DNA from: Paramacrobiotus metropolitanus | Lineage: Eukaryota; Tardigrada; Eutardigrada; Parachela; Macrobiotidae | Length of the DNA stretch: 64,000 nt | Assembly (NCBI RefSeq): GCF_019649055.1 | Contig: NW_026570225.1 | Location: 930,001 to 994,000, forward strand | Direction of reading: 5' to 3' | In this document: piece by piece, positions 4,401-56,059 of the stretch | How the letters are laid out: every line of letters starts with the position of its first letter | How positions within the stretch are numbered: the stretch's first letter is position 1 | Program-made: the position numbers and the translations under genes | Notes under the pieces: generated by a model | Databases searched by the model: none | What the model was told of the DNA's origin: nothing | Seen by the model: only the letters and a program-made list of their open reading frames with translations

Positions 4401-7400
4401 TTAAAGGGATGCCCACGGGAATTCATTGCTAACCGGATTGCATGGCCAATTAATGCACAATGAAAAGTAGCAAAGCAGTCAGTAACTTTTAAATGTAATT
4501 GACAAGGAAAAGCCTAATGGACATTCCACAATTCTTCTCAGTTAATTATGTCCTTATCGATGCGAGAGTATCCTGTCGCATTAAATTTTGACGGAATGGA
4601 CATTATCTTGATAATAATATTTTTTCACTACGACCAATTACTAAAATTCGTGTCGTGAAGGCATACTCGATTTTGCTTGAGGAATGGAAAAATTCTTTTG
4701 CATTTTATTAGAGTATGCTGTTCGACTCCCCTACTCGTAGTTTCTGCAACCTCCAAATGTGCGCCGCCAAGATGCGGCACCATCTTTTGGCGCACTGCAA
4801 TCTTTAGCGTGCTTTTGCTTAATAAAAAGCCTGATTTGTTACGCCCATCCTATCCAATCCACCGTTGAATGAATTCGCTGTTAGAGGTCTGAGTTCAGAT
4901 AATTTTGCTGGTGGAGACATATAATTCACATTGATCCAAAGTATCACTTAAACAGATAAAGTCAGGGATGGTAAATTGCCGGAGCATTGTGACGACGATG
5001 TGACATTAGCGAGACAACTCCAGCAGGACGTCTCTGATTTCGCAACGTGTCTAACCATATGAATCTCAGACGTACAAGTACTGTAGTAGATGGCAAAACC
5101 ATTTTTCCTTATGCGCTAAATTTGCTGAAGTTGATTAAAAATCTGTTCGTGCTGTATACATACGTGGAATATTCTGAAATTTTTCTGCATTTTCAACTCC
5201 TCCGCATGTATTTGATTTCCTTAGGTTCGTCAATTCGCGGCGGTTACAGAATTATTTGCGGTTGTGGTGTAAACGTGGTTATGTATATTTCTGAATTGTG
5301 TAGTCTGTAGTCTACAGATACCGTATTACCGTAGAGTAGAAAATTAACCGAGTCTCTAAGTTTCTGGTGATACCGTAGTACTTAATTTTCCCGTTGCCAT
5401 TTTTCCGGGAAAATATCGTAAATCTCAGACTTGTGGATTCCGGTTACCTGCTACGGGTGTTTTCAACTTTTCTCATTCGATAAAAACAACACTCCGAGGC
5501 AACCTAATTATAGCTAAAGAAAATAAAAGGGGGAAGTCGTTGACACAATTTGTGACGCCAAAGCCACCTCCTCACGTACGGACACGTATGAGGCCAAATC
5601 GAGCGCCGAAATACACACATGCGGTACTTTAATGCCAAGTAGGGCTATATATATGTGTATATCCGGTTTCTCAATTTGTTCTGCCCCGGAAGTTGAGAGT
5701 ATCCCCGCCTGGGCCCGCCAAACTGACAACATTGGTAATGTTCCTGTCAACTGTGGCCTACTCCCGCTACGTTTGACATGACAATAATTGTGACTGGAGA
5801 GAAATCTAAACAATGACGGGATAATCTTGAAACTGACTGCGATAGCATGCTGCAAGCGTCTGTGACGTGTGTGCGCAACTACAATTAAAATTCGTATAAA
5901 GAGCAAGAGCTCGCAGCTGCAGTATGCCGCTATGAGCAGTAATTTGTGGAAATAATTTTCATCAATTTACAGTGTCCGCAAATATTGCAGCATTGTACTA
6001 CAGTACTGTTTATATTTTGTAGGCTTCCAAGGAATTAAAGGGCATCAAGGAGTCAGTTTGCAGTTTAAAGATAGAATGTCAGATTGTCCAAAGTGCACGT
6101 GATGAATATTATGCTAAATCCGGCAACCTGGATTCCTTAGTGAAGGTCAGTGTTTGCACACACTCGCTTTGCATATCGTCGTCAAGTTGAAGCTCGTCGC
6201 ACTTCGATTGTAATAATTTATGCTGCTTATAATATCGATCATAACATACTCGTACAGCTGGTCTCACCTTGGTTCTTGAATTGACGGTGTATACAGGAAA
6301 AGTCTTCGCTTGCTTGCTTGCTGCACGTCCACGTACATAGACAGATTCTTTACGTTGTTCTGCGCCGTTGCAGTCTCTTCGAGAAGCCGCTGAAAGGCGG
6401 AAAGACCTGGAATTAGAGCACCAGGAAGCACAAAACCAGCTTCGCGAAAAGCAGGATGAGATCAAACAACTCCACAAGGTTAGGCAACACGTCTTCGTTT
6501 GCGTTGCTTCAGGACTGTAAACAGCGCGCTATCCTTTCTTTGTAGAATGAAGTAGCCGGACGACGCAAACATCAAGAAGTAATCGAAGCGCTCGAGGTTT
6601 GTCTACTTGTGCCGATATATATCAGAACCCAAAATAATTCAAATCAGACATAATATAGAGCAGCAATCTGGGCCTTCCGTTAGCATCTTGCTGATTTAAG
6701 AATGTGTTTTGGCTCTATTCTATGGGCTTTAAATAATGCTCTGATATGTGAAACTAAATCGGGCATTTTTGTTGAAATATGTTGAATTATAATGGACCAA
6801 TATTTTATGCACTTAGTCTAAGTTACGAGAAGTGGAAAAGAAATGCGAGCTGCAAAAGGTCCGCTACGAAGAGCTGAGCGTGGAGATGGAATCCGTGCAA
6901 CGGCAGGCGTCGCGTTCGCGCTCGTTAGCCAGTGTGACAACAGCGGAAGTGCAGACCTCTCCCGAATCGGGCACGTCCACACCCGACTCGGCCCTGAGCA
7001 GTATCGGCACCAACACCGGCACTGCCACCGTCGCCACCGGCTCGCGAATGGTCAACGGCGAGACGCCATCTACCACCCAGCGGCAGGCGGTGGTCAACTG
7101 CAAACCGCGTTTCGGACACCAGAAGAGCGATTCCGGACTTGGTACGTTAACGGAGTGCTGACACCGCATATATACACGGAAACCGTCCTTGACCGAATGC
7201 TTTTAGTAGGATCCAGTCTGGACGAATCCGTCTCCTCCCGGAAGGACTACTCGAGCTCATCAAAGTATGTAGCGAAAAGGCAAGCATCCCCTTTAACAAC
7301 CATTAATCCATATCGCATGCAGCGTCCACGCCTGTGTCATTATCGTAACAAGTGCAGGTCAATAATCGAGCTAATGATGACACCGCCCACGTGCGCGTTC

Positions 7401-41202: not shown

Positions 41203-45797
<4,595 letters not shown>

Positions 45798-46746
45798 TGC
45801 TGCTGCTCACTACGTTTTGATCTCTTAGTACACTTCTTGTTTACAGTCAGGTTCTCGCATCGTTTTCGGTGTGAGTTATGCTTGTGATCAGGTATTTTTT
45901 CATTGCAGCTAAATAGTAATTATTATGTAATTTGTAAATCTTTAATTGTCTTGTGTGAGCTATTTGCCGTCCAGCTTCCTGTTACATACCGCAGAAAATG
46001 GCTTGGTGATGTACGCAGATAACGATGTGCCGTTATAATTCTGCGTACTGCGCGCTCATCAAGCTCGCGATCCGCATCGGTGCAATCATGCAAAAAGAAC
46101 AACCATAAACCGATGGGCGAGCAAAGTTCAAAGAATGCAGCTAAACAGAATTACGGCATATAAGTATCATCTGAATTAGGGATTTTTTAAGTGCCTAGTG
46201 CAACGCCATCCAAACTGACCTTTTTAGTTAAGGTTAAGGAGCACATCCTTATGAGACGCAGTACGGTGTGCAGTGTAAGTTCACACTGTACTGTAAACAC
46301 CTTCCTTTTGGCATACTGCCTGAATTTTCGAGGGCTGATCCAATCTTGGTAGGCGTTTTTGGTGCCATACTTTACAGTAACGAATGTAAGTATGTACTTT
46401 TCTAATGCAGTAATTACAGATATGTACACAGTCTGTACACTTACACACGTTTGGTCATAAAATTAAAACCTATAACAGTTATTGTATTTTGTACGACTAT
46501 CAAGCGACTATTCAAGGCGCTTGTGAGCTGCGTTGACGAATTTTAAAGAAATGGCTTTTCATCGACGTGTGCATCGAAAATGCATGCAGATTACTGACAG
46601 TGCCACCGTGGTATTCACTCTGCAAATGATTTAATAATCCAAAATAAAACAAAAATATAAATACTGGATACTGGATTTTATAGTAAAGTCACGACTAAGA
46701 AATCCAACGAGTCAAAACGATAAAAAAATCATTAATTCTGTACAGA
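45798..46746. other. intergenic gap, rabphilin to hAT-derived gene (converging)
   Basis: About 0.95 kb containing both 3' UTRs. No gene or element was recognised. Confidence 0.6.
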
Positions 46747-49700
46747 TCATGCGAATAGTTCTTTTAAAGAGGCCACTCTGCTGCTCTCCCCAAACCATCC
46801 TTCCTCGGGGACATCGCTCTTGATGTTCTCCATATAATTAGCTACAGCGTCCTGACATCCAACCACATCGGCCTCTTTTAAATCAACATTCTCCGTGCTT
46901 CCCTGCTTCTTCGCCTTTCTCTCATCCTTCATCAGTTTCACTTTCGTTCTAGCTATTTGTATAAGCTTTTCTCTACTGGTCAGGTCTGGGCATGTCCTCT
47001 CCGCGTCTTTCCACACCGTCTCTACAGCCACTGCCGATGGAGTGATTCGCAGCAGAAAGATGGCTAATTTGGCCAGCTCGGGATGGATTTCCTTAACATA
47101 CTTCCAGTAGTAGATCTGACCTTGAGCTTTCCATTGTCGAATAGTGGATTGATTGAACGGCTCTTCTTCATCCCGGTAAGCTCCGATGGAAGGAAGCAAC
47201 GCATCCGGTTGGCAATGAAATACCTGTTCGTACAACTTCAATGCCCAGCTCCCGATTTTCGTCCATTTGATCGTGTTGGCCGTGAAAATGGACAAACGCG
47301 TTTCAATGTTAAGAGCGCAGGCAATAATTAGCAACTTCTGGTCGCAGTGATTTTTCCAGAACGTTTCCAGATTGTTTAAGAGAGCTGTCCTCACCAGCAT
47401 ATCGGAAACATTAGCAAAGGCTTTATGCAGAATTTGCAGCTGGATGAGAAGATCGCAAATGAAAAGGTTATCACGCTGAATACTCCGCTGGGCATTGGTA
47501 AGTGGCAGCAAAACGTGCTGGAGATTCTCCAAACTGCTCCAAAATGTTTCGTCTTCCATCAATAGTTGCAACTCTATTGGTAATTCGCTATCTTCACTCC
47601 TTGAAAAATCCTGCCAAAAACAAACATAAATTTCTTAATTTAACGCAATGCATCGTTGACACAATACAATGCAGTAACTGTACGATGAAATAATTCTTAG
47701 TATTCCACTATTATTGAGTGCGTGGTTGCGTATTTTCTGATACAAAATTAATGTAGAAAGTTATGTACTGTACGTACATTTTTGCATAATACTCTACTAA
47801 GATGTGTTTGAAAGTAGAAATCATAATGGGTAACTTTTTCTTTCTTTCATCTCATCTATCTGTGATTCTTAATGCAGTAACGTCCTCTAACACTAAGGCC
47901 TCGTCCCGAATTTGAAGCGAATCTCGTTGCGATACAGCAACTCCACCTCGCGAGGTGGCTTCGCGTACCGTATCTGTAGGCGTGGCCACTGCATACAGCC
48001 ACCTCGTGCGGTTGAGCAACCGTACCATAGCGAGATTCGCTTCGAATTCGGGACAAGGCCTAATGACGACGGGTCGACCCGGCAAGATTTTTGCATGAAA
48101 TCAATAAGCTGACGTGCTCATTGCGCAGCCTTTCTCCCTATGCAGTATCTATACGAATAGCCATAATAACTTTTGGGCTGATGGTTCTCACAGAGTTATA
48201 GTCAACAGGTGTTAAAGATGACAGACATCGATTTTTCGTGCTCTTTGATGCCCGAACAACACCTTACGCACCTGCAAAGCATCTTTGTTTTCCACAATAC
48301 TGGAGAAGCATTGCACATATGAATTCCAGCGTTGTCCAACAGGAGTGGGCACTTCTTCAGCGCTGGGATCGAATATTAATTGTATCTTCCTAAACAGTTC
48401 CGCAGTCGATTTACTCCGGTGAAGACATTCTTGCAGCAAGACTACCTTATCCAGCCATCGCTGGAATTGCAGCAGTTGCAACGCATCTCGCGTTAGTTTA
48501 TCAAAATGCTGAGAATATAATGGCAAAACGATAAAACTGGAAATCTGCTCGTGCACAGCACGGTGGATATTAATGCAGAGGGAGGATAAAACAATGGACG
48601 CCACAGTGGCACCGTGTTCTTGCTGCAGTAACTCTACAGCGTGCATAATTTCCTGAGTCAGTCCCTGTGCAGCTGCGTCCTGGCTTACTGGTTCGGAAAC
48701 ACTCAGGAGAAAGCTATCTGCAATGCTGCCGACCCGCACAGAAGCCACGAACCCTGCAAGAATTTTGGACTTCATCCCAATAAATCATTCAAATCTCCAC
48801 TTTATATGTTTTCTATACATATTTCCATATGACATAATTTTTGCCCATACGTGCGTGCACCATAAAGTACATTCAGTTCCTTTCGCAAAAATAGATTATG
48901 TTAATTATTATTTAACTAGCCTTCTATTTTTGATCAGAAGTCGGTTTCTACATCCCGCTCAACATAAATACTCATACCGGTCACAAAGCGACTCCGCGAA
49001 TCATTCCACATACGAACATGCAATGTCACACATTCCTGGTCGACCAGTAAGTTGACCGTATCCTTCTTTGTTTCCAGTACAACGCTAGCCAAAACCTCCC
49101 CCATCAGATCACTGACGCTCGGAAGCAGTGCCGTCGAATTCAGTGTTTTGAAGAGATGGACAACATGGTTATCAGACAAGGCAGAAAAGGGAATGCCTGC
49201 CGAAATACATGCTTTAATCACATCTAAGTCCAACGCTTTCACTTTCGGCACTGCGCTGGGAAGAGTAGTAGCGACTGTGGAAGCACTGGAAGTGGACTCA
49301 ACGGAAACGGGTCCCGTATCTGGCGGCAGCACGTCGTTATTCTCTGCAACTTTTACCGGAGCCTTTAGCTTAATCGTGGAATAAGTGCGCTTCTTGGACG
49401 ATCTCCTCATCTGGTCTTCATTAGTCAGGTCCAGCCTAGCTTCGTGCGTCAAGTACGGACATCTCCTCACATGAATCATTAATCGATCCCGTTCGCGACG
49501 CAAGGGTTCCCATTCTCCAGTGTGTTCATGGCATGCCACACAATAAGCGACGGAGTGATGTTGGCCGCGATACTTTCCGGGACCTTTTCGAAAGTGCGTC
49601 CATAATACGGTATTGCTTTTGTACTCCGGATCCACTAACACAACCAAGGATCTTCGTCAGCTTTAGTAAAAGACAATTAAGTGTCTCATAAAGTATAATC

Positions 49701-50757
49701 CTAAATTCCCTACTGGCAGTATATCGTCATACGATAAATCGGAATGATTACATCAATTTTCCATAGTTGGATATAAAAACATTACACATTTCATTTATGG
49801 AGAAAGCTTCGTATCCATCTATCCGACAGTCGGCACAAGCTTACTCTGGGCGCAAAACTGGAAAAGCGTTAACTACCGGTATACGGTATGTACGTATCCA
49901 TATAATGCGAATTTTAACAGAATAGACTATTACTATTCCGGTCGTGACTATTACTAATAGTCATGACCGGAAAAGCGAAACAAAGTTTTCAAAATCGAAA
50001 TATTATGAATTACAGAACAACTGAAAATTAATTACGTTAGCAAAATTTAATTATAAATGCCAAAAACCACAAGCAAATGCCATACCAATAATAATTTAGC
50101 CGAAATGTTCGTCTTGTGCAGCAAATAACCCATCGCTCTGAAACAATTTATTAAAATCCCGACTGTACTTATTCCAATTTACCGAAGTGACACTCAATTA
50201 ACAGGCTAGGAATTTCGCAGTCAACTAAGCAACTTACTCGGACCGTCATCAGAATATTCACCAGAGCCTTGCATCTCATCGTCGTTGACGGGCAGAGCGG
50301 CATATTCATCGCATTTAACGGAGGTAGGCATGGGAAGACGCATACTGGAAGACAATTTCTTGGCTTCCATCTTTGGTTTCTTCTGTGCCGACGTGTCACA
50401 TGCATCACACTGCAGATCAGTTTTAACGCTGGCAGACATGTACGGGCATTTTTTTACATGGCGCATCATCGCTAAACGTTCACCACGCAGCGCCTCCACG
50501 ATCCCCACTGCTTTGCAAGCACAGCAGAAGGCTTCCGGATGATTACTAGTGCAGTGTTTTCTTGTTCCCTTCTCGAAATAATTCCATAATTTCAATCGCT
50601 GGTAGCCACTGCATGAAGCTGGTGGGTCCTCTGCTACTGAAAACAATGCCAGATTTTATGCTATTAAACAATTGCCAATCAATCTGAAGGAATGCCACAA
50701 GCGAAGCCCATTGTCAAGTGGCTTACAAGGCAAGGATTCCTCGGATTCATCATCCAT
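46747..50757 (-). CDS. hAT-transposase-derived protein with two BED-type zinc fingers
   Basis: Exons: 50757-50727, 50636-50238, 49634-48978, 48753-48272, 47610-46747; 810 residues, phases consistent. BED finger 1 (about residues 20-70): KLWNYFEKG, FCCACK, MRHVKKC. BED finger 2 (about 145-205): VLWTHFRKG, YCVACH, MIHVRRC. After a Ser/Thr-rich linker comes a degenerate RNase H-like transposase core (FVASVRVGSIADSFLLSV; SIVLSSLCINIHRAV; PTPVGQRWNSYVQCFSSIVENKDAL). The HATC dimerisation region at the C-terminus reads HPELAKLAIFLLRITPSAVAVETVWKDAER. Where active hAT enzymes have VxTDNA, this protein has VLSSLCIN, so the second catalytic Asp appears lost. Four introns, no inverted repeats at the ends and an intact frame suggest a domesticated gene, probably DNA-binding. 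Its partner THAP gene starts 556 bp away on the other strand. Confidence 0.85.
47894..48063. mobile_element. PIF/Harbinger-type MITE, copy 2
   Basis: A 164-bp element at 47897-48060 with GGCC-type inverted ends, flanked by TAA at 47894-47896 and 48061-48063. It is the same length and orientation as copy 1 (37043-37206) and differs at only a few positions, mainly paired changes near the ends (AATTTGAAGC against AATTCAAAGC). It sits in the last intron of the hAT-derived gene. Confidence 0.9.
49936..49972. repeat. 17-bp inverted repeat with one mismatch, 3-nt loop
   Basis: Arms TTCCGGTCGTGACTATT (49936-49952) and AATAGTCATGACCGGAA (49956-49972) pair except at one position, around the loop ACT. 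It lies in intron 2 of the hAT-derived gene, between the two BED finger exons. Confidence 0.8.
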
Positions 50758-51312
50758 CTCTGTTATTAGTAGTAATCGCTCACGGTAGTTACTAAAGTTT
50801 CTTCAGGAACACATGCAGTACTTATTATTACCTCATACATGTTATAGCACACGTACAAGCCAAAACTGTAATAATAATTTTATAAACTCAATACAAATTA
50901 TAATTACAACAGGGAACTGCTCACAATGTTAAATTTGTTTGCGTTTTGAATTTTTGAGAAAATAATTTCAAAACGATGCAAGAAGTACTTACTCGTATTA
51001 GCGAACATTCACTTCAACCAGCGACTTTTTATTAAGTGGCAGTCTGTGGCAGTCTGTGGCCCTGCTTCAACATTACACAGTGGAGGCTTAACTCACACAG
51101 CGGGCGCTCGACGGTTAGGGCATCAAATGTTAAGTCGAACGCTCTCTCGCAGCAGTCACGTTATTTTGCCCATTCCCCTGTCACAGATGGCAGCAGCGTC
51201 GTTTGCCATCGGCTGGTATGCACGCGGTGCAGAGTTCACAACTTTCGCAGAGTTCTCCGTGAATTCGGGGAGGTTGATTCCGAATGAAAAAAGTTTTCAG
51301 AGCGAGTGCTCA
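50758..51312. promoter_or_regulatory. shared upstream region, hAT-derived gene / THAP gene
   Basis: 555 bp between the two start codons. A short tandem repeat (GTGGCAGTCT, then again) lies at about 51036-51060. The THAP frame is open upstream to 51046, so part of this region may be coding or 5' UTR for that gene. Confidence 0.5.
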
Positions 51313-53515
51313 ATGTCCAGCTCTGATGTGGCTGCGTTTATTATCAGCGGTATATCCGACGAAACGGAAGAGTCATCCACAAAAATGCCGCGATTCCACC
51401 GTGGTCGACGTTGTTTTGTCAAATCCTGCATGAACTACCAGCGTGATCTGAGTAGGGAACCAGGAGAAATCCGCTTTTACTCTGTTCCCGATGATCCCGA
51501 GGCAAGGGAAGTGTACAAAAGCCTGTGCAGCCGCACTGGGGAAGTCGCCAAATGCTCCGTGATATGTTCGCAGCATTTCACAGAAAACGATTTAACAAAA
51601 TCTGGGCATTTAAAAAGGAACGCGCTGCCCAGTCTGAATCTTATTACGTGAGTGCGTTTTACTGATACAGAGATACTTAACAGGTTATTACCGTTTTTCT
51701 GTGTCATTAATTCGGCAGTTTCCAAAAGAAAATGTGTACACTACTATCTATATTTGGTCGTAATTGTTAAGAAGACCGCTATGTTAAGAAATTGCGCATC
51801 GTTCTTTCGGAAAAATAAGTAATGTCATTCTATCGGAAATACAGCATTACGGTATAGAACATAGGTTACTAACAGAAAAACAATGGTAAGCGGGACTTCG
51901 AAATTTTAAAACTCGCTATGAGCCAGTGGGAAAACAGGTTTCAGTGTTCAGATAATTTTCACGTCATCAAATGTGACGTGACCATTGGGCATTTTTAAAA
52001 ATTATCGAATTCGGTTTTTTTTCGCTTTCATATGAATTACTATGACTGTGTCTACTCTAATATTTGCTGCCTGCTCTTTCAACTATCGCTTTATCAGAAA
52101 ATACGCAATGTTTAAATAGCTGTACACGTAGTCTGTAAAACAGGTGCTGCATTGCAGTGAATTATGGGATGTGGACAAGCCGGTACGAATTGGAAAGAAA
52201 TGGAAAGGAAACCTGTGCGCCGTGCAGGGCTGCCGCAGTTACACGGGAGAGCGGCAAATTATGAATCTCCACTTTTTCTACTGCCCCCAGAAATCCTTGT
52301 CCGAGCAGTCGGATGAAGCGATGGACTTGTATAACAAGTGGTTCATGGCCTGTGGTCGGAATGACATTGACCAGTTTTCCAAGTATCACCGCGTCTGCTC
52401 GCTGCATTTCGAGCCGGATGACATCGATCTCGATACAAACCGCGCCAAATTACGGCCAACTGCTTATCCCACTCGCTTTCTGCCCGGCACTGAGGAAGAA
52501 ATGCCTCACGCCAAACTGCTTGAAGAAAGAACAAGGAATGTGGAAGCGGATGAGGAGAAAATTCGGCGATACCGATTTGAGAAAGGCTGCAAAGAAACTT
52601 GGTAACAAATGCTGGAACTTCTACTAGCACTGACTGCAACAAAACCTTAAATGTTAAAGCGGACTATTATTATATTTCTGTTTGTTTGTATAATAATAGT
52701 TTGTGCAATAATATAATTGTGGCATTCTCTGCACCTCATTCTTGCATTTCTATCGTCATAGCGATTTCTTTGCATTTTCTGTTAATTGATATTGTCGTAG
52801 GAAGCACATTCGAAATCCGTATTACAAGCCGCCGGCGCCAACGGACAATCTGGGAAATTGGTCCGTTTTCGAGAAGCACGATGCCTTTATAACGTTCAGT
52901 CGAGTCCGGAAAGGCAACAACTCTCGTTTAATGTACAGCGCCGTGGTAGATTTTGTGCGCTTCGAGGAGGACATGAGCGCCACCCTGTCATCGGGCAGCC
53001 ACAACATCCTGCCGCAGAAATACAGCGATTTCCTGGAAGACGGCCGCGCCGCGTCCACTAAAATGGTGGAGAGCATGTTCAACTTCGATTTCCAGTCCTG
53101 TGAAGTGGTCCTCGTGATCCAGTCGGTGCCGCCGCTGAACGTGGTCGATCAGGCGTTTCTGGTCAGTCTAGGCGACAGTGTGACGCAGGTGACCTTTGAA
53201 GACGGCTTGACCACGGTCACGCAGGCTCTGCAAGTGGATGGCGACATGGTGGCGGACAGCTCAGCCTCGGAAGCGACACTGGCAGCGCCTTCGGACCACA
53301 ATGCAAGCGATCAGGACATGATCGATGCATTAACGCCGCTGGATGATATGAGCGCCACACCGGAAGAATCCGTCACCACCACTGCGGAACTGGAAACGGA
53401 GATCGTGGAGTCCAGTATTCCGGTGCCACAGGGGAAGAAGCGCGGTCGGAAACCGATGGCGGTTATGAGAAACATCGCGAAGAAAGTTATAATTGGGGAT
53501 TCAAAGATCGGCTAG
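51313..53515 (+). CDS. double THAP-domain protein with AT-hook
   Basis: Exons 51313-51647, 52158-52601 and 52801-53515; 497 residues, phases consistent. THAP finger 1 (about 30-112): CFVKSC, then CSQHF, ending HLKRNALPSLNL; the usual Trp is replaced (REVYKSLC). THAP finger 2 (about 120-215): CAVQGC, WFMACGR, CSLHF, ending AYPTRFLP. These are the C2-C-H zinc ligands and the terminal AVPTIF-like box of the family. Then follow KHIRNPYYKPPAP, a region without recognised domain (FEKHDAFITFSRV), a long acidic Ser/Thr tract, and an AT-hook-like KKRGRKP near the end. THAP domains derive from or are shared with P-element transposase; no transposase catalytic part is present. Start chosen at MSSSDV; an upstream in-frame ATG is possible. 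Confidence 0.87.
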
Positions 53516-54743
53516 GTGCAATGGCATGCGTAACGGTAGTTGCGCACGGTGATTCTTTGTACACAATGTTCATTTTTGGACATAGCTTTATATAAGGACC
53601 GTGTGGCGTATGCCACATAAAACGATAAGTCTGCTTCTCCTGAAGGACAAATTTGTTCGACCATCATGTTACTTGTTAGTAATTGCAAGTGGTGTTCGCC
53701 GAAACGATCTGCTCTTCTTTCCTGGATTTGGATTCGGGTTTTCTGTGCATTTGTTTTAGTTTTTATACATTAAAATTGAGGTTTAAAGATTTAAATAATA
53801 CAGTTCGTTTTCAGTTGTTTTAAACCTGTTTTCTACCCTTCAACTTTAATTCCTTAGTCGCTAGTTTACATTTTCTTTGGAGAATGAAAGAAAACTTATC
53901 AAATGGCACGAGTTCGGTTTTTTACACTTGCAAATATGATTTCATCTTGGTTACTCATTTCTTTCACTTATCACCTGTTTGATTGCACTTCCGACGTCAG
54001 CCGATGCTTTTCGAGTCGGGTAAATTATTTCCGGAGTGACTAACTGGCCGCTGGGAGCGTTGCGAACTATGGACGGCTAAATCCCTGGTCATGGTCACTC
54101 ATGGGTTCTGGCTCTGCCATTCGGCAGAGATTAACCTTCTGGATTTACTCTTCCGCAAAATTCAATTTTTAGGATGAAGTTACACGATTTACAGTTAAAA
54201 GTTGAGTAATAGCAGATAAGTAAATTTTCTCGCCGTTCCATCGTTGCACGTTATTCCGTGTCCTTACGACTGGTCCTTGTAACTGGCAGTAAGCTCGGGA
54301 CGCCACGCTGACAAAGCTGAATCCATAGTGATATCGATACGTGCTGTATTAGTTGTAAATTAAATCTTGTTGTTCTCATACGATTCTCCTAGTTAATTTT
54401 GTAAAAGTAAAAAATTACAGTTTAATATTGGACGATAGCACTTGTTAGTTATTACTGTATCTCGTTAAAATTCTATCTCGCTGTGTCGGATGCTTTGAGA
54501 TTTATCAGATTCTGATTTATCAGGTTCCGAAATTTTGTTTTGTTTTGACTGCAGTAGCAGAGTTGCCTTTTTATCGCTGTTCTTATCCCTTGGTGTGGTC
54601 CTTGCAGTTTGAAGGCGTATTGCCTTATTTGCCTTCGTGTTTACTCTTTACGGTTTTAGTTTTGCGTTTGTTCTATAGTCTTGACTATTTACTATTTCGG
54701 ACTAATTTTCTGGTTATCGAGGAGTTGTGTAACTTACGCGAAA
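53516..54743. other. intergenic gap, THAP gene to CHMP2A
   Basis: About 1.2 kb, AT-rich, with the THAP 3' UTR and the CHMP2A promoter. No gene, repeat element or RNA gene was recognised. Confidence 0.55.
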
Positions 54744-56059
54744 ATGGCACTTGAATTTCTATTCGGTAAACGGAAAACTCCTGAGCAAATGATGCGAGAG
54801 AATCAGCGCACGCTGAACAAAGCTATGCGCGATCTGGATCGTGAACGAGCACGGATGGAACAACAGGAAAAGAAGATTATTATGGATATTAAGAAAATGG
54901 CCAAAGATAACCAGATGGTGTGAATGTGTTCTCTCTGCATATGTTGCTGACCAACAAGGTTTTGGTCATGCTTTTCAGGATGCTGTGAAAGTGATGGCCA
55001 AAGATCTCGTGCGCACCAGACGCTACGTGAAGAAGTTCATGATGATGCGCGCCAACATCCAGGCAGTGTCCCTGAAAATCACGGGACTGAAATCCACTAA
55101 CGCTATGGCGCAGGCTATGAAGGGTGTCGCCAAGGCCATGGGACAAATGAATAAGCAGGTACATCCATTTTGGCTCGACCTGCCTGATCTTTGGAGGATT
55201 GAGATACTTTACGGTTTTACCGTAGACTGATGAATCTCTTATGAGTCTTATCGTTCTCTATGCTTTACTCTACTGCCCGACTGTCCTAGGGGTTGTTATG
55301 GTTTTATTTTACGGTTGCAAATTGCAAATTTATGACGGCATAACGGTCCAGTGTTTTTGGTTGTTTACTGTAATAATTCATGTTGGTGTAGCGCGTTGCT
55401 GGTTGTTGCAGATGAATCTGCCGCAAATCCAGAAGATAATGCAGGAATTCGAGAAGCAGTCTGAAATCATGGATATGAAAGAGGAAATGATGAATGATGC
55501 CATGGACGATGCCATTGGAGCGGACGACGATGAGGAAGAAACGTAAGTCTGTATTTCCGAGTTATGACCGATTTTGAGGAGAAATTTTCATGATTTTGTA
55601 AAAGATGCTTTGTTATTAATTTATTGCCGTTATTGCTCATTTATTCTGATATATAATCACAAATTATGTCGTTTAATATGAGTGGCAGTGACTGAAATGA
55701 AGTACTCCAGCACAGTTTTATGTTAGCAGCAGCCGTGTGCCGTTAATTTGCTCTATCGATTATTAGAAACCTTATTACTAAGTTAGATAAGTATAGGTTA
55801 GCCTTTATCCATGCATACGTTGCTCCGCATGTTGGATAAAAGCGTATTTATTTATCTGCTGCCTTGTAGCGACCAGATTGTCAACAAAGTACTGGATGAG
55901 CTTGGCCTGCAGATCGCTGACCAAGTGGGTGGACTGCCCATCGCCCAAGGCTCGGTGGCGCCCGGTGCTGCCAAGAAACTGCCTTCCGCCCAGCCGGCTG
56001 GCGGAAGCGATTTAGATGCCGATCTGGAAGCGAGATTGGAGAACTTACGCCGAGAATAA
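54744..56059 (+). CDS. CHMP2A: charged multivesicular body protein 2a (Vps2), ESCRT-III
   Basis: ESCRT-III subunit that polymerises on membranes for vesicle budding, abscission and repair, and recruits the VPS4 ATPase. Exons 54744-54917, 54979-55158, 55412-55542 and 55870-56059 give 224 residues (family about 222). The start MALEFLFGKRKTPEQMMRENQR is a typical Snf7-fold N-terminus with an amphipathic first helix. The basic helices (LVRTRRYVKKFMMMRANIQAVSLKI) are followed by the acidic autoinhibitory part (MMNDAMDDAIGADDDEEE). A C-terminal MIM1 motif (DLEARLENLRRE) binds the VPS4 MIT domain. All expected parts are present. AATAAA-type signals follow at about 56385. Confidence 0.96.

Follow-up and report, generated by a model that had tools for sequence, protein, structure and literature searches.

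A hAT-derived gene with a doubled BED-like finger, head to head with a THAP-family gene in a tardigrade genome

When two genes with transposase-type DNA-binding fingers lie side by side and are transcribed away from each other, do they form a working pair, or are they neighbours by accident? We address this question for a locus of Paramacrobiotus metropolitanus, at positions 46747 to 53515 of a 64,000-nucleotide stretch of contig NW_026570225.1 (positions 930,001 to 994,000 of the forward strand; hereafter the window, which lies on contig C5 of the searched genome). A sequence-only reading had taken the locus to suggest a co-regulated pair of domesticated transposon proteins, encoded by a hAT-derived gene with two BED-type fingers and by a THAP gene that likewise has two fingers of its class. 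We instead find it probable that these are two separate host genes, a domesticated, non-mobile DNA-binding protein derived from a hAT transposase and a gene of the THAP family.

Gene models rebuilt from the sequence place the hAT-derived gene at 46747-51008 on the minus strand and the THAP gene at 51385-53515 on the plus strand, and positions 46747 and 53515 are the final bases of the two stop codons. The hAT-derived gene has five coding exons (805 amino acids, 2418 nt; exon start phases 0, 1, 1, 1 and 0) and the THAP gene has three (473 amino acids). In both genes every intron is GT-AG, the phases match and there are no internal stops, which bears out the divergent, head-to-head and intron-bearing layout with intact frames that had been proposed. 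The proposed shared region of 555 bp was not reproduced: the distance from ATG to ATG is 376 bp, or 118 bp when an upstream in-frame ATG of the THAP gene, at 51127, is used.

Origin and immobility of the hAT-derived gene

Exon 2 of the hAT-derived gene (50238-50636) carries a first BED-like CCHC finger, and exon 3 (48978-49634) carries a second finger, a linker and the start of an RNase-H-like region, which continues in exon 4 (48272-48753). Exon 5 (46747-47610) encodes a helical region and, by alignment, the hAT C-terminal dimerisation region. We assign the gene to the hAT superfamily because it resembles hAT relatives elsewhere in the genome (G000; 169.8 Mb in 533 contigs), because the ligands of its fingers are invariant and because it shares two intron sites with those relatives. 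The best relative of its protein in the genome matches at E 5.4e-25 with 29% identity, and the alignment to the relatives spans the C-terminal dimerisation region. The Pfam profiles remain under their cut-offs: Dimer_Tnp_hAT reaches E 0.029 on the exon and 0.095 on the whole protein (14.6 versus 21.4 bits), and DUF659 reaches E 0.001 on the whole protein. One of the 12 relatives that we fetched, on contig C59, exceeds the Dimer_Tnp_hAT cut-off (24.1 versus 21.4 bits); it was not shown to be an element.

Among these relatives there are four pairs of copies (C97/C127, C347/C120, C371/C54 and C133/C161). In three of them the two copies have sharp ends and 97.5-99.6% identity over 3.1-3.5 kb, and in the fourth the identity is 93-94%. 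Read by eye, all eight paired copies start with TAGG or TAAGG; five are flanked by a perfect 8-bp target duplication, one has none, and the right end of two was left unresolved. From these starts and duplications we conclude that the paired relatives are hAT transposons, and their near-identity indicates that the lineage was recently active. Two introns, A (phase 1) and B (phase 0), occupy the same position and phase in the window gene, where they follow exons 3 and 4, and in the relatives that were read (by eye; A in C97, C120 and C133, B donors in C97, C120, C54 and C133, and B acceptors in the first three). Judged by these sequence features, the hAT-derived gene descends from the same intron-bearing hAT lineage as its recently mobile relatives.

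The window gene differs from these relatives at its catalytic residues. In a full-length alignment to four of the 12 relatives (C97, C120, C133 and C59), the first catalytic acid is D in all four relatives aligned at that position and R in the window gene (exon 3); the second is D in three of three and S in the window gene (exon 4); the third is E in three of three and is retained as E in the window gene (exon 5). The D-D-E triad is thus not intact, with two of its three acids replaced, and the encoded protein cannot be expected to catalyse transposition.

Signs of recent mobility are likewise missing around the gene. The genome search did not find a close copy, the next best match being the 29% identical relative. 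Terminal inverted repeats (TIRs) of related elements do not occur in the window above chance, with zero matches to one TIR and, for another, a single three-mismatch match versus 2.79 expected. We also found no combined signature of flanking TIR and target duplication: 39 exact 8-bp repeat pairs flank the gene, and even the best-matching 12-nt ends have 5 mismatches, no pair agreeing at more than 7 positions. Without a close copy and without a TIR of the related families, a recent insertion of the gene was rejected. A 15-nt inverted repeat at 45852 and 50970, which encloses most of the gene, was rejected as a possible TIR remnant because its 8-bp flanks differ and because the same 8.8 kb hold ten inverted pairs, each 14 to 65 nt long. 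Intron 4 contains a fold-back element resembling a miniature inverted-repeat transposable element (47896-48061, plus strand; 65-nt arms, 80% complementary), of which 29 nt are identical to positions 1294-1322 of locus L003, beside a hAT element copy.

The doubling of the finger distinguishes the window gene from its relatives. Each of the 10 relatives with a finger match, out of 12 fetched, has one finger place. In an alignment of the two window fingers with those of six of these 10 relatives, the C-C-H-C ligands are invariant in all eight fingers. BED fingers follow the ligand pattern Cx2C...Hx3-5(H/C) with a W/F lead, and both window fingers fit it. The two fingers are 38% identical over the aligned stretch in one alignment and 41% in another. 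Exon 2 is in phase 1 at both ends, and its presence therefore keeps the reading frame intact; the second finger most simply arose by exon duplication. Elsewhere in the genome, on contig C245, a tandem array that repeats about every 42 bases lies near a hAT-type finger (L014, 655-1946).

The nonsynonymous proportion of differences (pN) is lower than the synonymous proportion (pS) in all eight comparisons, and the bootstrap upper bounds of pN/pS range from 0.38 to 0.88. Between finger 1 and finger 2 the ratio is 0.46 (bootstrap 0.31-0.64), and between the THAP genes of the window and of contig C12 (see below) it is 0.43 for the first THAP domain and 0.40 for the second.

Taken together, the hAT-derived gene is best read, from sequence comparison, as encoding a ZBED6-like, domesticated DNA-binding protein that is no longer mobile. 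According to this proposal, a gene from an intron-bearing transposase lineage would have lost its element ends and two of its three catalytic acids, and would have come by a second BED-like finger through an additional exon that is in phase 1 on either side. Its product would most likely be a nuclear regulator that binds DNA and does not cut it: the two CCHC fingers of each chain would read a bipartite DNA site, and the retained hAT C-terminal region may pair two chains.

Several observations weigh against this account. Pfam zf-BED matches neither window finger, and it also misses the finger exons of the hAT relatives that were scanned (C97, C120, C59 and C28). Compared by profile, window-type fingers and the Pfam-type BED fingers of the genome give a weak match (E 0.00024 at a probability of 43%, over 25 columns and in the first half only), and one search of solved structures returned no match while another returned a single non-credible match at E 0.95. 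A tree unites the two window fingers in just 24% of bootstraps, with long-branch warnings, and places both with the C97 and C133 fingers at 100/100; a sister grouping of the two was therefore left unsettled by the tree, and the second finger could instead have been recruited from another element copy. The first exon and its start codon are predicted (50993-51008, minus strand; 16 nt, with an ATG, then a GT donor and a phase 1 that fits the next exon). Synonymous sites are saturated, with an infinite synonymous divergence (dS) in six of the eight comparisons; consequently, pN/pS shows past constraint and not the date of selection, and part of that constraint may date from the transposon phase. 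Finally, third-position GC is 0.51 in the hAT-derived gene, 0.44-0.51 in the elements, 0.63 in the THAP gene and 0.60 in a neighbouring C2-domain exon, and such an element-like value does not favour an old host gene.

The earlier description of this gene is consequently retained in part. Derivation from a hAT element and two BED-type fingers agree with the similarity to hAT relatives, the C-C-H-C ligands and the introns, and domestication is probable; the profile checks that had been suggested succeeded for THAP, gave nothing for zf-BED and stayed below cut-off for Dimer_Tnp_hAT.

The THAP gene and its family

We now turn to the THAP gene, whose two THAP fingers were confirmed. Exon 1 (51385-51647) encodes the first THAP domain (44.8 bits, E 2.2e-11) and exon 2 (52158-52601) the second (51.9 bits, E 1.4e-13), both above the Pfam cut-off of 23.9 bits. 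Both have C2CH ligands in the pattern C-x4-C, then C-x2-H. The protein would most likely bind a bipartite site through these two fingers. Exon 3 (52801-53515) encodes a C-terminal domain that is conserved in two further genes, on contigs C12 and C61, and, near the end of the exon, a putative AT-hook-like KKRGRKP.

The THAP domain is generally associated with P-type transposases. A Pfam scan of the 473-residue protein found THAP domains only and no P-type transposase domain, and a P-element origin was rejected on that result. As no P-type transposase part was found, the description of the THAP gene as a domesticated transposon protein has no support beyond the general association, and of the two genes only the hAT-derived one keeps that description.

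The gene is a member of a small THAP family with a common C-terminal domain. A paralogue on contig C12 (C12:853073-854832) shares both THAP domains with it, and the C-terminal domains of the two are similar. Smith-Waterman scores between the window and C12 genes pair like with like (158 for the first domains and 282 for the second, versus 53-89 between first and second types), and the two-THAP layout is therefore older than the duplication that produced these genes. The single THAP domain of the C61 gene (C61:4953-5738) is of the first type, with a score of 146 against the first domain of the window gene, and the C-terminal domain comes directly after it. In the window, C12 and C61 genes, an intron that splits a Trp codon as TG^G precedes the C-terminal domain. 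Used as a genome query, the C-terminal domain of C12 matches in C12, C5 and C61 only; Pfam does not match this domain in the window gene. Among solved structures, a profile search returned a single non-credible match at E 0.83.

A gene on contig C7, described below, has the same TG^G intron, and its C-terminal stretch was considered as a further instance of the domain. The resemblance is weak: in 1000 shuffles, scores as high as those with C5, C12 and C61 came up 30, 14 and 86 times, respectively, hhalign gives a probability of 0.6% at E 0.091, a search with the stretch finds only itself, and the intron is its sole support. Contig C17 holds a dense array of THAP matches over about 200 kb (C17:1202474-1406957), with open frames of up to 1310 amino acids; the one frame that was fetched, of 1310 amino acids (L029, 252-4181, minus strand), contains nine THAP stretches and is uninterrupted. 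The array looks like a large family of poly-THAP genes.

Neighbours by chance or partners

Is the adjacency of the two genes more than chance would produce? The adjacency count used the start positions of matches; merging those within 5 kb gave 67 THAP and 69 hAT/BED loci. The THAP input held 72 of the 150 scored matches and 2 more, of which only 6 lie on C17, the omitted ones being taken as the dense array there; the hAT/BED input held all 14 and all 53 matches of two lists and 13 of the 35 relatives of the hAT-derived protein. Because 150 of 180 THAP candidates were scored, the adjacency counts are lower bounds. Within 5 kb, we observed two THAP-hAT/BED pairs versus 0.27 expected by chance (Poisson 0.031); the Poisson value is 0.012 at 3 kb, 0.10 at 10 kb and 0.30 at 20 kb. 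Given this expectation, the window pair by itself has about a one-in-four chance of occurring somewhere in the genome, and adjacency is not clearly above chance.

The two close pairs are the window locus and the C7 locus, and the latter is apparently one gene. On the minus strand of L015 (G000:C7:2324001-2334000), an eight-exon open model with fitting phases, whose exons lie between positions 6975 and 1, joins THAP, BED and THAP exons in one frame, with the TG^G intron before the C-terminal stretch; the gene may extend beyond the model at either end. As single exons, zf-BED scores 32.8 bits, the second THAP 39.8 and the first THAP 23.1, just below 23.9; with the exons joined, zf-BED and both THAP stretches exceed the cut-off.

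The strongest competitor is the co-regulated pair of the sequence-only reading, in which one divergent promoter would drive both genes and their products, a hAT protein devoid of catalysis and a THAP protein, would bind each other or related sites, as a two-gene counterpart of LIN-15B. The head-to-head layout with 376 bp between start codons, the excess of close pairs over expectation and the union of THAP and BED exons at C7 speak for it, as does LIN-15B, a single protein with THAP-type and hAT-like domains (PMC12570147). Against it, genome searches place no hAT/BED match on contig C12 beside the two-THAP paralogue, the C7 "pair" is apparently one gene and leaves the chance expectation for the window pair alone, and its finger belongs to the Pfam type, unlike those of the window. 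We therefore regard a co-regulated pair as unlikely, and the simplest account of the adjacency is chance proximity, with promoter activity shared at most. The region between the start codons (51009-51384) is a candidate shared divergent promoter, with a GC content of 50%, a CpG observed/expected ratio of 1.01 (1.08 in the whole window) and no TATAWA in a motif scan; the two genes may share it, and their co-regulation is possible.

A stricter version, in which the genes of the dead hAT protein and the double-THAP protein have a common promoter and the two proteins form one DNA-reading unit with common target sites, a split counterpart of LIN-15B and of the C7 THAP-BED-THAP gene, appears more doubtful still; if true, the two classes of transposase-type finger would have come together repeatedly in animals. 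Least probable, and by our estimate very unlikely, is that the hAT-derived gene is an immobilised transposon copy whose frame is open by chance, with no domestication involved: its lineage was recently active and its third-position GC is element-like, but neither a close copy nor TIRs or a flanking duplication were found, two catalytic residues have changed while the 2418 nt remain free of stops and frameshifts, and two fingers of such low mutual identity both keep all their zinc ligands.

The locus is flanked on the left by a C2-domain exon (window 44581-45069; Pfam E 1.6e-28) and on the right by a Snf7-family (ESCRT-III) gene (window 54660-55543; exon frames at E 1.1e-5, 1.2e-15 and 2.9e-9), which we take to be CHMP2/Vps2.

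Comparison with known systems

Two separate host genes, our preferred reading, can each be set beside known proteins. For the THAP gene these are the multi-THAP proteins of Drosophila, C. elegans and some echinoderms, which likewise carry more than one THAP domain per gene (PMC13228809); in the window gene these are joined by a C-terminal domain without a Pfam match, which at least two other genes here (C12 and C61) also carry. C. elegans LIN-15B combines THAP-type domains with a LIN-15B domain that has a hAT-like sub-region (PMC12570147). LIN-15B is one protein, whereas the window holds two divergent genes, and the likeness is one of domain content. If the THAP pairing were functional, it would point to a repeated partnership of two unrelated transposase-type finger classes.

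The hAT-derived gene shares with the Hermes transposase, whose finger ligands are C51, C54, H71 and C73 (PMC10368747), and with the paired local elements a CCHC finger and the same domain order, and with the local relatives also two intron sites. These relatives have one finger place each where a finger was found and, where aligned, D-D-E, whereas the window gene has two fingers and R-S-E. Its closest parallels are ZBED6 and ZBEDX, domesticated vertebrate hAT genes with two BED fingers whose doubling followed domestication, according to PMC3606216; the window gene resembles them in its hAT derivation and doubled finger, but it belongs to an independent lineage, its fingers lie beyond the reach of Pfam zf-BED and it bears introns. 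The same text describes a conserved DDE motif as common to ZBEDs, whereas the window gene has lost two catalytic acids. The locus thus appears to show a domesticated hAT transposase in which the finger was doubled independently, and because recently mobile relatives with the same intron sites persist in the same animal, the loss of element ends, the loss of catalysis and the gain of a finger become directly comparable.

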